DNA of 64,000 bases, taken from contig JARGFU010000010.1 in the NCBI GenBank assembly GCA_029210625.1, forward strand, positions 62,001 through 126,000, in the 5' to 3' direction. Source of the DNA: Deltaproteobacteria bacterium (GTDB lineage: Bacteria > Myxococcota > Myxococcia > SLRQ01). A program made the position numbers and the translations under genes. Positions 36,538-42,603 of this stretch are shown one piece after another. The notes beneath the pieces were generated by a model. That model saw nothing but the letters and a program-made list of their open reading frames with translations, searched no databases and was not told the origin of the DNA. The number at the start of each line of letters is the position of its first letter. Within the stretch, counting starts at the first letter, position 1.

Positions 36538-39500
36538 GTGGCGGACTTCGCGCACCTGCATCTGCACACCCTCTACTCGCTCCTGCAGGGAGCGATCCGC
36601 CTCGGTCCGCTGATGGAGCGGGTCAAGGCGGGGGGCATGGACTCGGTCGCCATGACCGACACCGCCAACCTCTACGGGGCGGTGGACTTCGTGAAGCAGG
36701 CGAAGAAGCACGGCGTCCACCCGATCCTCGGCAGCGAGATCTTCGTCCAGGGCGCCGACGCCCGGCCCGCGGCCCTCGTGCTCCTGGCCGAGAACGGGAC
36801 GGGTTACCGCAACCTGCGGCACCTGCTCTCCACTGCCTGGTTGGAGCACCACGAGCCCAGCGCCCGCTTCCCGTTGATCCCCTTCTCGCTGCTCTCGAAG
36901 CACACCGAGGGGCTCTTCGCCCTCTCGGGCGGCCTCGACGGCGAGCCGGCGCGGGCCTTCGTCGAGCGGGGGCCGGACGCCGCCCGCGAGGCAGTGGCGC
37001 GCTACCGCCAACTCTTCGCGCCGGCGCACTACCACCTCGAGCTGCAGATCAACGGCTACCCCGAGCGCCGGCGGGTCAACGAGTTCTTCAAGGAGCTCTC
37101 CCGCGACGAGAAGATCCCCCTGGTGGCCACCGGCGACTGCCACTACCTCGACCGGCGCGACGCCCGGGCGCACGAGGTGCTGCTCTCCATCGCCGAGCAG
37201 GTGCGGGTCGAGGAGCTGCGCCGCAGCCGGCAGGTGGGCGAGACCCAGTACCTGCGCACGGCCGAGGAGATGCTCGAGCTCTTCGAGGACGTGCCCGACG
37301 CCGTCTACCGCACCGCAGAGATCGCCGAGGCCTGCTCGGTGGACCTCGAGCTGGGGAAGCACACCTACCTGCCCAACTTCGAGGTGGGGGAGGGGCACGA
37401 CCAGGCCAGCTGGCTGGCCAAGGTGAGCGCCGAGGGGCTGGGGAAGCGCTTCGCCGAGATCGGCGACAGCTACCCCTACGACGAGCAGGAGTACCTCGAT
37501 CGCCTGGAGCTGGAGCTCAAGGTGATCACCGACATGGGCTTCCCCGGCTACTTCCTGATCGTGCAGGAGTTCATCAACTGGGCGAAGGACCACGGGGTGG
37601 CGGTGGGGCCGGGCCGCGGCTCGGGCGCCGGCTCCCTGGTCGCCTGGGTGCTGCGGATCACCGACCTCGATCCCATCCACCATGGCCTGCTCTTCGAGCG
37701 CTTCCTCAACCCCGAGCGGGTCTCGATGCCCGACTTCGACGTCGACTTCTGCCAGACCCGACGCGACGAGGTGATCGAGCACGTCAACCAGCTCTACGGC
37801 GTCGAGAACGTCGGCCAGATCATCACCTTCGGTCAGCTCAAGGCCCGCTCGGTGATCCGCGACGTCGTGCGGGTGATGGGCCTGCCCTTCGCCGAGGGTG
37901 ACCGCCTGGCCAAGCTGGTGCCGCCCGACCTGGGGATGACCCTGGAGAAGGCGCTGCAGCAGGAGCCGCGGCTCAAGGAGCTCTACGAGAGCCGCGAGCA
38001 GCCCATCTACCGCGAGATCATCGACATCGCGATGAAGCTCGAGGGCCTCAACCGCCAGGCGGGGGTCCACGCCGCCGGCGTGGTCATCGGCGACAAGCCG
38101 CTCTGGGAGTACGTGCCGGTCATCCGCTCGAAGGACGGGGACATTGTCACCCAGTTCGCCAAGGAGGAGGTCGAGGAGGCGGGCCTGGTGAAGTTCGACT
38201 TCCTGGGCCTGAAGACCCTCACCATGATCGAGGACGCCCTGCGGCTGGTGAACCGCGGGCGCCCCGAGGAGGAGAAGGTCCGGGTCGAGGGCCTGCCCCT
38301 CGACGATCCGAAGGTCTACGAGCTGATCTCTCGCGGCGACACCACCGGCGTCTTCCAGCTGGAGTCCTCGGGCTTCAAGGAGCTGCTCAAGAAGCTGCGC
38401 CCGGATCGCTTCTCGGACATCGTCGCCGCGGTCGCCCTCTACCGGCCGGGCCCCCTGGGCTCGGGGATGGTCGACGACTTCATCGCCCGCAAGCACGGCC
38501 GGCAGGCGGTCTCCTATCCGCACCCGGCCCTGGAGCGGGTGCTGGAGGAGACCAAGGGCGTCATCGTCTACCAGGAGCAGGTCATGGAGATCAGCCGGAT
38601 CCTCGCCGGCTACTCCCTCGGGCGCGCGGACCTGCTGCGCCGGGCGATGGGCAAGAAGAAGGCCGAGGTCATGGCCGCCGAGCGCTCCGGCTTCCTCGAG
38701 GGCGCCGCGGCCAACGAGATCGATCCGGACCTGGCCGGTCAGATCTTCGACCTGATGGAGAAGTTCGCCGCCTACGGCTTCAACAAGTCGCACTCGGCGG
38801 CCTACGGGCTGATCACCTACCAGACCGCCTGGCTCAAGACCCACTACCCGGTCGAGGCGATGGCGGCCCTCCTCACCTCCGAGCGGGACAACACCGACAA
38901 GGTGGTCACCCACATCGGCGAGGTGCGCCGGGACATGGGCATCGAGGTGGTGCCGCCGGACATCAACCGCTCGGGCGAGTTCTTCGACGTGCTCCCCCCC
39001 GACGAGGGCGAGCGCCTCGGGAAGATCCTCTTCGGCCTCGGGGCGGTGAAGGGCGTCGGTCACGCGGCGATCGAGGCGATCCTCGAGGCGCGCGAGGAGG
39101 AGGTGCACTTCCGCGGCCTGCTCCACTTCTGCGAGGCGGTGGACACCCGCCGGGTGAACAAGCGCACCGTCGAGGCCCTGATCAAGGCGGGCTGCTTCGA
39201 CTACGTCGGCGTGCCCCGCGAGAACCTCCTGGCCACCCTCGACCGCGCGATGGAGCGGGGACAGAAGGCCCAGAAGGACCGTGAGATGGGCCAGTCCGAT
39301 CTCTTTGGCGGCGGCTTCGCCAGCGGGGGCAAGTCCGCCAGCGCCACCGAGAACGAGCGTGCCGACATCTACCGGGAGAACGAGGAGGGGCCCTGGACCG
39401 AGCGCGAGCGCCTCGGGGCCGAGAAGGAGGCCCTCGGCTTCTACCTCACCGGTCACCCCCTCGATCGCTTCGCCAAGGCCGCCGGCCGCCTGGCCACCCC

Positions 39501-40038
39501 CCTCACCCAGCTCGCCCGCTGCGAGCCCTACGAGGAGGTGAAGGTGGCGGTGATCGTCGAGGGGGTTCAGGAGCGGGTGACGAAGGCCGGCGCCCGGATG
39601 GCCCGGCTGGTCCTCGAGGACCTCGCTGGCCGCTCCGACGCCGTCTGCTTCTCGGGTACCTTCCTGGAGATCGAGGAGCTGCTCAAGGGAGACGACCCCC
39701 TCCTCCTCTCCGGCCGGGTGCGGGTCGAGGGCGAGGGCGAGGAGGCCACGGTCGAGTTCCGGGTGCAGGGCGCCCAGCGTCTGGAGGACGTCCGCGCCGA
39801 GGTGGCCAGCGCCATCACCCTCTCGGTGCCCCCCGAGGTCCTCGACGAGGGGAAGGCGCGGCGGCTGCGTGAGCTGCTCGCCGCGCACCCCGGCCGCTGC
39901 ACCACCTTCCTGAAGATCCGCGAGGAGGGCAGCTGGGAGACGGTGCTCCGCCTCGGCGAGCTCTCGGTGCAGCCCACCGAGGCGCTCCTCGCCGGCGTCG
40001 ACGCCCTCTTCGGGCGCCGGGTCACCGAGGTCCACTAG
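36538..40038 (+). CDS. dnaE: DNA polymerase III alpha subunit
   Basis: 1,166 residues from GTG 36538; no clear ribosome site. The PHP domain starts at once (HLHLHTLYSLLQGA, later TGDCHYLDRRDA). The C-family polymerase core has GPGRGSGAGSLVAW, the catalytic Asp pair in MPDFDVDFC at about 398-403, and the fingers/helix-hairpin-helix region HSAAYGLITYQTAWLK. The tail includes an OB fold (VAVIVEGVQERVTKAGARM). This is the replicative DNA polymerase. The PHP motif TDTANLYGA has Thr where active PHP domains keep His (TDHGNLFGA), so exonuclease activity may be lost. It converges on the nitrilase gene with a 3-base gap. Confidence 0.97.
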   Translation: MADFAHLHLHTLYSLLQGAIRLGPLMERVKAGGMDSVAMTDTANLYGAVDFVKQAKKHGVHPILGSEIFVQGADARPAALVLLAENGTGYRNLRHLLSTAWLEHHEPSARFPLIPFSLLSKHTEGLFALSGGLDGEPARAFVERGPDAAREAVARYRQLFAPAHYHLELQINGYPERRRVNEFFKELSRDEKIPLVATGDCHYLDRRDARAHEVLLSIAEQVRVEELRRSRQVGETQYLRTAEEMLELFEDVPDAVYRTAEIAEACSVDLELGKHTYLPNFEVGEGHDQASWLAKVSAEGLGKRFAEIGDSYPYDEQEYLDRLELELKVITDMGFPGYFLIVQEFINWAKDHGVAVGPGRGSGAGSLVAWVLRITDLDPIHHGLLFERFLNPERVSMPDFDVDFCQTRRDEVIEHVNQLYGVENVGQIITFGQLKARSVIRDVVRVMGLPFAEGDRLAKLVPPDLGMTLEKALQQEPRLKELYESREQPIYREIIDIAMKLEGLNRQAGVHAAGVVIGDKPLWEYVPVIRSKDGDIVTQFAKEEVEEAGLVKFDFLGLKTLTMIEDALRLVNRGRPEEEKVRVEGLPLDDPKVYELISRGDTTGVFQLESSGFKELLKKLRPDRFSDIVAAVALYRPGPLGSGMVDDFIARKHGRQAVSYPHPALERVLEETKGVIVYQEQVMEISRILAGYSLGRADLLRRAMGKKKAEVMAAERSGFLEGAAANEIDPDLAGQIFDLMEKFAAYGFNKSHSAAYGLITYQTAWLKTHYPVEAMAALLTSERDNTDKVVTHIGEVRRDMGIEVVPPDINRSGEFFDVLPPDEGERLGKILFGLGAVKGVGHAAIEAILEAREEEVHFRGLLHFCEAVDTRRVNKRTVEALIKAGCFDYVGVPRENLLATLDRAMERGQKAQKDREMGQSDLFGGGFASGGKSASATENERADIYRENEEGPWTERERLGAEKEALGFYLTGHPLDRFAKAAGRLATPLTQLARCEPYEEVKVAVIVEGVQERVTKAGARMARLVLEDLAGRSDAVCFSGTFLEIEELLKGDDPLLLSGRVRVEGEGEEATVEFRVQGAQRLEDVRAEVASAITLSVPPEVLDEGKARRLRELLAAHPGRCTTFLKIREEGSWETVLRLGELSVQPTEALLAGVDALFGRRVTEVH

Positions 40039-40041
40039 CCT

Positions 40042-41430
40042 CTAGATCTCTTCCTTCTCGCCGCCCCGGCCGGTGAAGACGCAGCGGTAGAGATCGGTGC
40101 GTCGGTCGCGCCAGTTCTGGGTGGTGCCGGTGAGCCGGTGGCGCCGGATGAGCTCGAGGTCGAGGTCGTGGAGGAGCACCTGCGCGATGTTGGCGCTGGC
40201 CTCGGCGGCGATGCCGTCGCGGCTGAAGGGGATATCGCAGGGAGAGAAGATGGCCGACTGGGCGTAGTGGATGTCGGCGTTCTCGACGAAGGGGAGGTTG
40301 CCGACGCAGCCCGAGATGACCACGTACATGTGGTTCTCGATGGCGCGCGCCTGGGCGCAGTAGCGGACCCGGTTGTAGCCGTTGCGCTCGTCGGTGTTGA
40401 AGGGGACGAAGAGCAGCCGGGCGCCGCGGGCCGCCGCGAGCCGCGCCAGCTCGGGGAACTCGACGTCGTAGCAGACGTTGATGGCGATCCGCCCGCGGTC
40501 GGTCTCGAAGACCTCCAGGGCCTCGCCCGCGCTGATGCCCCACCAGCGGCGCTCGTTGGGGGTGACGTGGATCTTGTACTGCTTGGCGATCGTTCCATCC
40601 CGGCGGAAGAGGTAGGCGACGTTGTAGAGGCAGTCCTCCTCCAGGGTGAACTGCGAGCCGCCGATGATGTTCACGTGGTAGCGCACGGCGAGCCCGGTCA
40701 TCAGGTCGAGGTAGCGGGGCGTGTACTCGGAGAGCAGCCGGGCGGCCTGCCCGGGGCCGTGCGCCTCGACCAGCGAGAGCAGCTCCAGGGTGAAGAGCTC
40801 GGGGAAGACGACGAAGTCGCTCCGGTAGTCCGAGGCGACGTCGACGTAGAACTCCACCTGCCGGGCGAAGTCCTCCCAGGCGACGAGGTTGCGCATCTGC
40901 CACTGCACGGTGCAGACGCGGACCTGGTTGACCGCCTTGAGCTGCCGCTTGCCCTCGGGGACGTACTCGAGGTTGGTCCACTCGAGGTGGGTGGCGTAGC
41001 CGAGGGATTCGGCGTCGCCCTGGAGGTAGTTCGGGATCAGGCCCCGCAGGACGAAGCCGTTGGAGAGCTGAGGGGTGAGCACCTGATCGTAGATGTCCTT
41101 GTAGACCACGTACTCGATGTACTCGCGGGGGGTCATCTCCGAGGCGTGGCGGTGGTAGCCGGGGATCCGGCCGCCGATGATGATCCGCTGGAGGTTCATT
41201 CGCCGCACGACATCCTTGCGGGCCTCGTAGAGGCGCCGGGAGAGGCGCATCCCCCGGTAGCGCGGGTGCACCATGATCTCGATGCCGTAGAGGGTGTCGC
41301 CCTCGGCGTCGTGGTTGCGGATGAAGCCTCCGTCGGCGATGAGCTTCCAGTCGTGCCAGTCCTGGTATTGCGAGAAGTCGACGACCACGCTCGAGGCCGA
41401 GGCGACGATGTGCCCCCGGTACTCGACCAC
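40042..41430 (-). CDS. Carbon-nitrogen hydrolase with C-terminal part of a GNAT domain
   Basis: 462 residues from GTG 41430. The first 150 residues are the second half of an N-acetyltransferase ([20 protein letters not shown], the acetyl-CoA loop). The nitrilase domain (about 168-440) has the triad Glu211 ([10 protein letters not shown]), Lys286 (KQYKIHVTP) and Cys320 ([10 protein letters not shown]). Family members join a GNAT domain to a nitrilase in one chain of about 510-560 residues. Here the N-terminal 98 residues are separated by one in-frame TAG (next entry), and the frame and homology run straight across it. If the stop is real, this part may be made from GTG 41430 without its acetyltransferase start. 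Confidence 0.8.
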
Positions 41431-41433
41431 GAT

Positions 41434-41730
41434 CTAGCCCTCGGGGAAGAGGTCGAGCTGGCTCTCGATCTGCTCCCGGGACCAGGTCACCATCCCCGGG
41501 AAGCAGGCCTCCTGCATGGCGACCAGGTCCTCGAAGTCGTCCAGGCGCATGGGTCGCACGCGGATCTGGCGCTCGAAGCTCTTGAGCTTGAGGGGGGCTC
41601 CGGTCTTCACGCCGGAGGCGCCGCGGCCGGGCTTCTTCTGCTTCTTGCCGATCGGCTTCTTCTTGGCCGCGCGCTTCTTGGCCGCCGTCTTCTGGGTCGT
41701 CTTCTTCTGGGTGGTCTTCTTCGCCGCCAT
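41434..41730 (-). pseudogene. N-terminal fragment of the GNAT-nitrilase gene with Lys-rich tail, ended by in-frame TAG
   Basis: 98 residues from ATG 41730, with GAGGAGG 8 bases upstream, a strong initiation site. Residues 1-40 are histone H1-like (AAKKTTQKKTTQKTAAKKR). From 50, QIRVRPMRLDDFEDLVAMQ and CFPGMVTWSREQIESQLDLF-PEG is the first half of the acetyltransferase. The TAG at 41434-41436 sits between FPEG and IVVEY; relatives have a Gln there (FPEGQ-IV), so CAG to TAG by one transition. The full unbroken gene would be 40042-41730. Either a recent nonsense mutation, an assembly error, or read-through. Confidence 0.75.
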
Positions 41731-41856
41731 CGCTCGGGCCTCCTCACCGGTGCCAACGGTAGGCCGTCGCCCGGGTCGGCACCACCCCGACCGGCTTGGT
41801 ACCCTCGCTCGCACCCAGTACTCGCCGGGTCCGGCACCCGGCGCCAAGGAGGCCCC

Positions 41857-42603
41857 ATGAAGACCAGGCTCTCGATCCTTCTCCTCTCCCTCGCCCTGCT
41901 CGGCGGCTGCGCTGCCACCAGCGCCGGCGCCCAGTACCACTCCCCCGAGTACCAGGCCCGGGAGGTGCTCTCCCAGCCGGTGATCCAGGCCAAGGACGCG
42001 CTCCTCTCCGAGGAGGCGATCCGGATGCTGCTCTCCCACCGCATCGTCCTCCCGGCGAAGGCGAAGCTCGCGGTCGTCGACCTCGGCCACGAGAGCATCG
42101 GTGGCGGGGGCTACTACCGGGCGAACAGCGCCGAGTTCCTCCAGCTCAAGAAGGAGAAGCTCGAGGCCATCGAGGCGCCCCTCGAGGCCACCGGCCGCTT
42201 CACCGAGATCACCCACGTGCCGCGGCTGCTCCACGGCGGGTACACCTCCCTCGTTCGCCTGCGCGAGGCGGCGGCGCTGATGCAGGCCGACCTCCTCCTC
42301 GTCTACCAGTCCCGCTCCCAGCTCGTTTACGACTTCAACCTCTTCTCCAAGGACGAGGTGCGGGCCCACGGCAGCATCGAGGTGCTGGTCATCGACGTCA
42401 CCTCCGGCGCGGTGCCGATGGCCGACACCTTCGAGGCCTTCCACCTCGAGAAGGGCAAGAAGGAGGACGTGGACGACTTCGAGCTGAAGAAGCGCGCCGA
42501 CCGGGCGGTGACCTTCGCGACCCTGGAGGCGGCGGTGGCGGGGATCTCCGACTTCTTCGCCCGCCGGGCGCCTGCCACCCCGGCGGAGGCCGACGCCGGG
42601 TAG
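41857..42603 (+). CDS. Lipoprotein of unknown function
   Basis: 248 residues. AAGGAGG lies 6 bases before ATG 41857, an excellent ribosome site; the longer open frame upstream has none. The signal peptide (MKTRLSILLLSLALLGGC) ends in a lipobox with Cys18. The mature part has 'KAKLAVVDLGHESIGGGGYYR', 'ADLLLVYQSRSQLVYDFNLFS' and 'IEVLVIDVTSGAVPMADTFEA', which look like alternating strands and helices of a CsgG-like or nucleotide-binding-type fold. I do not assign a family. The next gene starts after about 10 bases. Confidence 0.8.
   Translation: MKTRLSILLLSLALLGGCAATSAGAQYHSPEYQAREVLSQPVIQAKDALLSEEAIRMLLSHRIVLPAKAKLAVVDLGHESIGGGGYYRANSAEFLQLKKEKLEAIEAPLEATGRFTEITHVPRLLHGGYTSLVRLREAAALMQADLLLVYQSRSQLVYDFNLFSKDEVRAHGSIEVLVIDVTSGAVPMADTFEAFHLEKGKKEDVDDFELKKRADRAVTFATLEAAVAGISDFFARRAPATPAEADAG

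Follow-up and report, generated by a model that had tools for sequence, protein, structure and literature searches.

A single in-frame TAG interrupts a gene for a GNAT-nitrilase fusion on the minus strand of the window (the whole 64,000-nucleotide stretch of DNA analysed here), at a position where the homologues of the gene have a conserved Gln residue. On balance, we lean towards a recent single nonsense substitution, which turned a sense Gln codon into TAG in a single-copy GNAT-nitrilase gene. Such an event is of an ordinary kind, and we infer that the substitution is present in the organism. RF1 would then read the TAG as a normal stop, the product would be a 98-residue fragment made mostly of a leader and the beginning of the GNAT fold, presumably devoid of activity, and the bifunctional enzyme would be lost or strongly reduced.

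Structure of the interrupted gene

The gene occupies positions 40042..41730 (minus strand) and is 562 codons long, with the TAG included and the terminal stop left out. From ATG 41730 to the stop ending at 40042 there is a single frame, of which the TAG at 41434..41436 (minus strand), placed at the conserved Gln by the frame and the homologue alignment, is the one interruption. The preliminary description had proposed that a TAG in this exact position and frame splits an otherwise full-length gene of about 562 codons, preceded by a ribosome site and a start at 41730. These elements are borne out, as the remainder of the gene is undamaged and the motif GAGGAGG (41745-41739, minus strand) lies 8 bases 5' of ATG 41730. 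The exact start, placed by the ribosome site, is a probable one, as the first ~48 residues (41587-41730, minus strand), rich in Lys, Ala and Thr, form a leader with no clear counterpart at the starts of the homologues. The first fragment (41437..41730, minus strand) has 98 codons, encompassing the Lys/Ala-rich leader and the start of the GNAT domain. A second fragment can be drawn from GTG 41430 (40042..41430, minus strand), and it contains the remaining part of the GNAT domain and a nearly complete carbon-nitrogen hydrolase domain.

The gene encodes a fusion protein with a GNAT domain at the N-terminus and a carbon-nitrogen hydrolase behind it, presumably branch 12 of the nitrilase superfamily with its RimI-like N-terminus. 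Downstream of the TAG, the 463 remaining codons match nearly the whole CN_hydrolase profile (PF00795; E 8.6e-30, 104.3 bits against a cut-off of 23.2), and they pass the cut-off of Acetyltransf_1 (PF00583) by a narrow margin, with 22.5 bits against 20.7 over positions 39-98 of the 116 of the profile. Searched alone, the 98 codons before the TAG gave no Pfam or NCBIfam match. Glu311, Lys386 and Cys420 are present and make up the catalytic Glu-Lys-Cys triad of nitrilase domains. As both profiles are matched after the TAG and homology extends on both sides of it, the frame downstream of the stop does not occur by chance. The gene resembles other GNAT-nitrilase fusions in the order of its two domains and in this triad, but it differs from them by its internal TAG and its Lys/Ala-rich leader. 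A literature search yielded no paper on this fusion among the matches listed, as judged by title and beginning of abstract.

On one side, the convergent neighbour (36538..40038, plus strand) is putatively the DNA polymerase III alpha subunit gene dnaE by reading of its translation, and on the other flank a divergent frame reads as lipoprotein-like. No sigma-70-type promoter or terminator patterns were found at 39900-42000, which carries little weight at the 69-74% GC of the window.

Homologues and the age of the lesion

Gln occupies the site in all 15 homologues whose alignment covers it and none has a stop there; it is preceded by Glu-Gly in 13 of them. In the seven site-covering loci whose codons were examined, the codon is invariably CAG. 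The earlier suggestions that relatives have Gln at this position and that CAG was changed to TAG are thus corroborated. The comparison with relatives also revealed no homologues that are naturally two genes, given that eight matches from the phylum (E <= 1e-40) and seven contigs are open across the site. What we observe is an in-frame stop within a region homologous to intact genes, with a sense codon in the relatives, i.e. a nonsense-interrupted gene. Homologues are 46-65% identical to the window gene across most of its length, and the eight matches found elsewhere in the phylum show homology on both sides of the TAG, with 47-64% identity. Among named genome contigs, the scan identified 11 loci, seven of which cover the site, including, as titled, three from Planctomycetota and one each from Candidatus Sumerlaeota, Myxococcales and UBP1; the matches of the remaining four (L041, L043, L044 and L045) fall outside it and were left out of the site count.

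Within the phylum, the gene was detected at E <= 1e-40 in eight of 195 genomes, namely its own and seven others with eight matches, none of which contains an internal stop. Its distribution in the phylum is therefore patchy. In 37 relatives there were distant matches only, nearly all of them to the nitrilase portion; two weak matches fell within the GNAT portion. No orthologue was found in the sole genome of the same family, which is 85% complete, and no second intact copy in the organism's own genome, which is estimated to be 98% complete. The three other matches in that genome show 26-33% identity in the nitrilase part, or correspond to pieces of it.

The set of homologues has some peculiarities of its own. 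In two of the 13 that reach the position (L048 and L051), Gly stands in place of the nitrilase catalytic Cys, and from their sequences these nitrilase halves are possibly inactive. One related genome has two adjoining, convergent GNAT-nitrilase genes, L048 and L053 (G053:C6:3883-6993), 57% and 47% identical to the window gene. A close homologue (90% identity over 41 residues) is represented at L043:3751-3891 by no more than its final ~46 codons, which are preceded by an unrelated reading frame; this contig is rearranged or chimeric.

Apart from the TAG, we found no second defect in the 562 codons. Third-position GC is 0.98 before the stop and 0.97 after it. At columns invariant in the other homologues, the window gene deviates in three of 85, within the range of 13 intact homologues tested alike (from 0/82 to 15/97), L039 and L052 being left out of this test, as contig ends cut them, and kept in the site count. 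By part, the deviations amount to 0/5 before the stop, where only these five invariant columns are informative, 2/30 in the rest of the GNAT domain and 1/50 in the nitrilase domain. Given the few deviations, the even third-position GC and the intact triad, any loss of function is, by the yardstick of these comparisons, a recent one, or else it is not real. The nonsense substitution is thus either recent in the organism or confined to the consensus, and the missing decay is explained equally well by a consensus error and by a recent mutation.

That the organism carries an intact gene, and that the TAG is confined to the assembled consensus, introduced there by a base-calling mistake, DNA damage or an allele of a minority strain, is in our view a tangible possibility, markedly less probable than a substitution in the organism. 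Beyond the lack of a second defect, it is in line with the fragmentation of the assembly into 64 contigs, and with the absence from its predicted tRNA set of tRNA-Ile(GAU) and tRNA-Ala(UGC), which are often located in rRNA operons; such absences are probably shared with many assemblies built from short reads or metagenomes. Another isolated in-frame TAG, this one on a different contig, also points that way. It lies in an ABC ATPase domain (G000:C12:122453-122455, i.e. L091:2453-2455, minus strand). However, in-frame stops occur in only one of 54 PF00005 matches and none of 136 matches to the response-regulator domain PF00072, and the consensus is therefore not generally poor. Moreover, a handful of interrupted genes is usual in bacterial genomes. 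Among the PF00005 matches listed for six relatives, there were no in-frame stops.

Decoding of TAG in this genome

RF1 was found with 512.5 bits against a curated cut-off of 423.25. The search of the genome with the Rfam model returned 44 tRNAs with 42 distinct anticodons, and none of the 44 has a CUA anticodon. As for pyrrolysine insertion, the only trace of PylS is a 20-bit match to PylS_Cterm, far from the cut-off of 178.15. In 239 kb, comprising the window and sampled stretches, 165 gene-like ORFs end with TAG (81), TGA (79) or TAA (5); the count comes from a crude codon-score gene finder, and the 81 TAGs may include both in-frame ones, as the ORF before each stop was counted. TAG is an ordinary terminator in this genome, and one of its two main ones.

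A search for the DNA pattern of a CUA anticodon arm gave five matches, versus two for the control. Two of the five are inside tRNA-Gln genes (anticodons CTG and TTG), where they start 10 bases in and off the anticodon, and the remaining three overlap none of the 44 tRNAs. In a separate ARAGORN search, a tRNA-Ser(CGA) was predicted at positions 201-279 of the window (plus strand). It is missing from the Rfam tRNA search of the genome, which lists a tRNA-Ser(CGA) on contig C15, and the ARAGORN prediction is probably spurious.

It is scarcely conceivable that TAG has been reassigned to Gln or is efficiently suppressed as Gln. The existence of two in-frame TAGs, together with the complete absence of in-frame TAA or TGA among the domain matches listed, would agree with such a change, but the presence of RF1, the lack of a CUA tRNA among the 44 found and the prevalence of TAG as a terminator all argue against it, and both reassignment and a suppressor tRNA were rejected on these grounds. 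The ABC ATPase site is also at odds with it, as none of the 11 aligned homologues has Gln there (Trp in four, Gly in three, Pro in two, Arg and Ala in one each). Ranked by E-value, the top two, L112 and L113 of a single genus, carry Trp and the next one Gly, and L116, the one of the same family, has Arg. Judging from this alignment, the original residue was probably, but not certainly, Trp. A coding-score scan of the 239 kb gave four candidates and missed the known ABC case; in its relaxed form it gave 13, both known in-frame TAGs among them. On inspection, the remaining 11 resemble ordinary junctions between genes, where a start codon is close by; full frames were read for two of them, L110 and L107. 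The in-frame TAGs of this genome look like scattered nonsense changes.

Possible residual function and implications

Should the substitution be real, the gene might still be partly functional, a reading that we consider unlikely. Termination at the TAG could be followed by reinitiation at GTG 41430, to yield a nitrilase that keeps the greater part of its GNAT domain; alternatively, some of the ribosomes could read through the stop. The GTG lies three bases 3' of the TAG, the ribosome-site-like GAGGG (41438..41442, minus strand) is 7 bases 5' of it, and the second fragment would keep both its nearly complete hydrolase domain and the triad. Nevertheless, the GAGGG coincides with the Glu-Gly codons, and as the same two residues also precede Gln in most of the intact homologues, it needs no selective explanation. 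Furthermore, the product would have a GNAT fold without its first part. Ordinary termination at the TAG is the most likely course, with reinitiation at GTG 41430 a possibility. An even more daring proposal, which we find most improbable, is that the fusion has been split into two cistrons, in which a terminate-and-reinitiate site created by the stop at this GTG makes the nitrilase independent of a complete GNAT partner, and that selection has maintained this arrangement in the lineage.

Low-level read-through may also occur at the TAG. According to PMC5289835, U after the stop is reported to reduce read-through, mainly for UAA; here, the stop is followed by A. Belinky et al. 2021 (PMC7918605) argue that in-frame stops in conserved bacterial genes are often read through, while the vast majority are assumed not to be functional recoding. 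The situation is similar here in that a single in-frame stop is found in an otherwise conserved gene, and their worked example also opposes TAG to CAG at one orthologous position, which lends some support to partial function. In contrast, their focus is on stops common to two or more species, and ours is found in one genome only. As none of the 15 homologues shares the stop, this is not a conserved recoding site, and programmed read-through was rejected.

For annotation purposes, the locus is best entered as an interrupted gene, rather than as a shorter nitrilase whose start has been reassigned or as a case of unusual decoding. If the TAG is real, a fusion enzyme known from several phyla has recently been lost from this lineage, or is being split in it.
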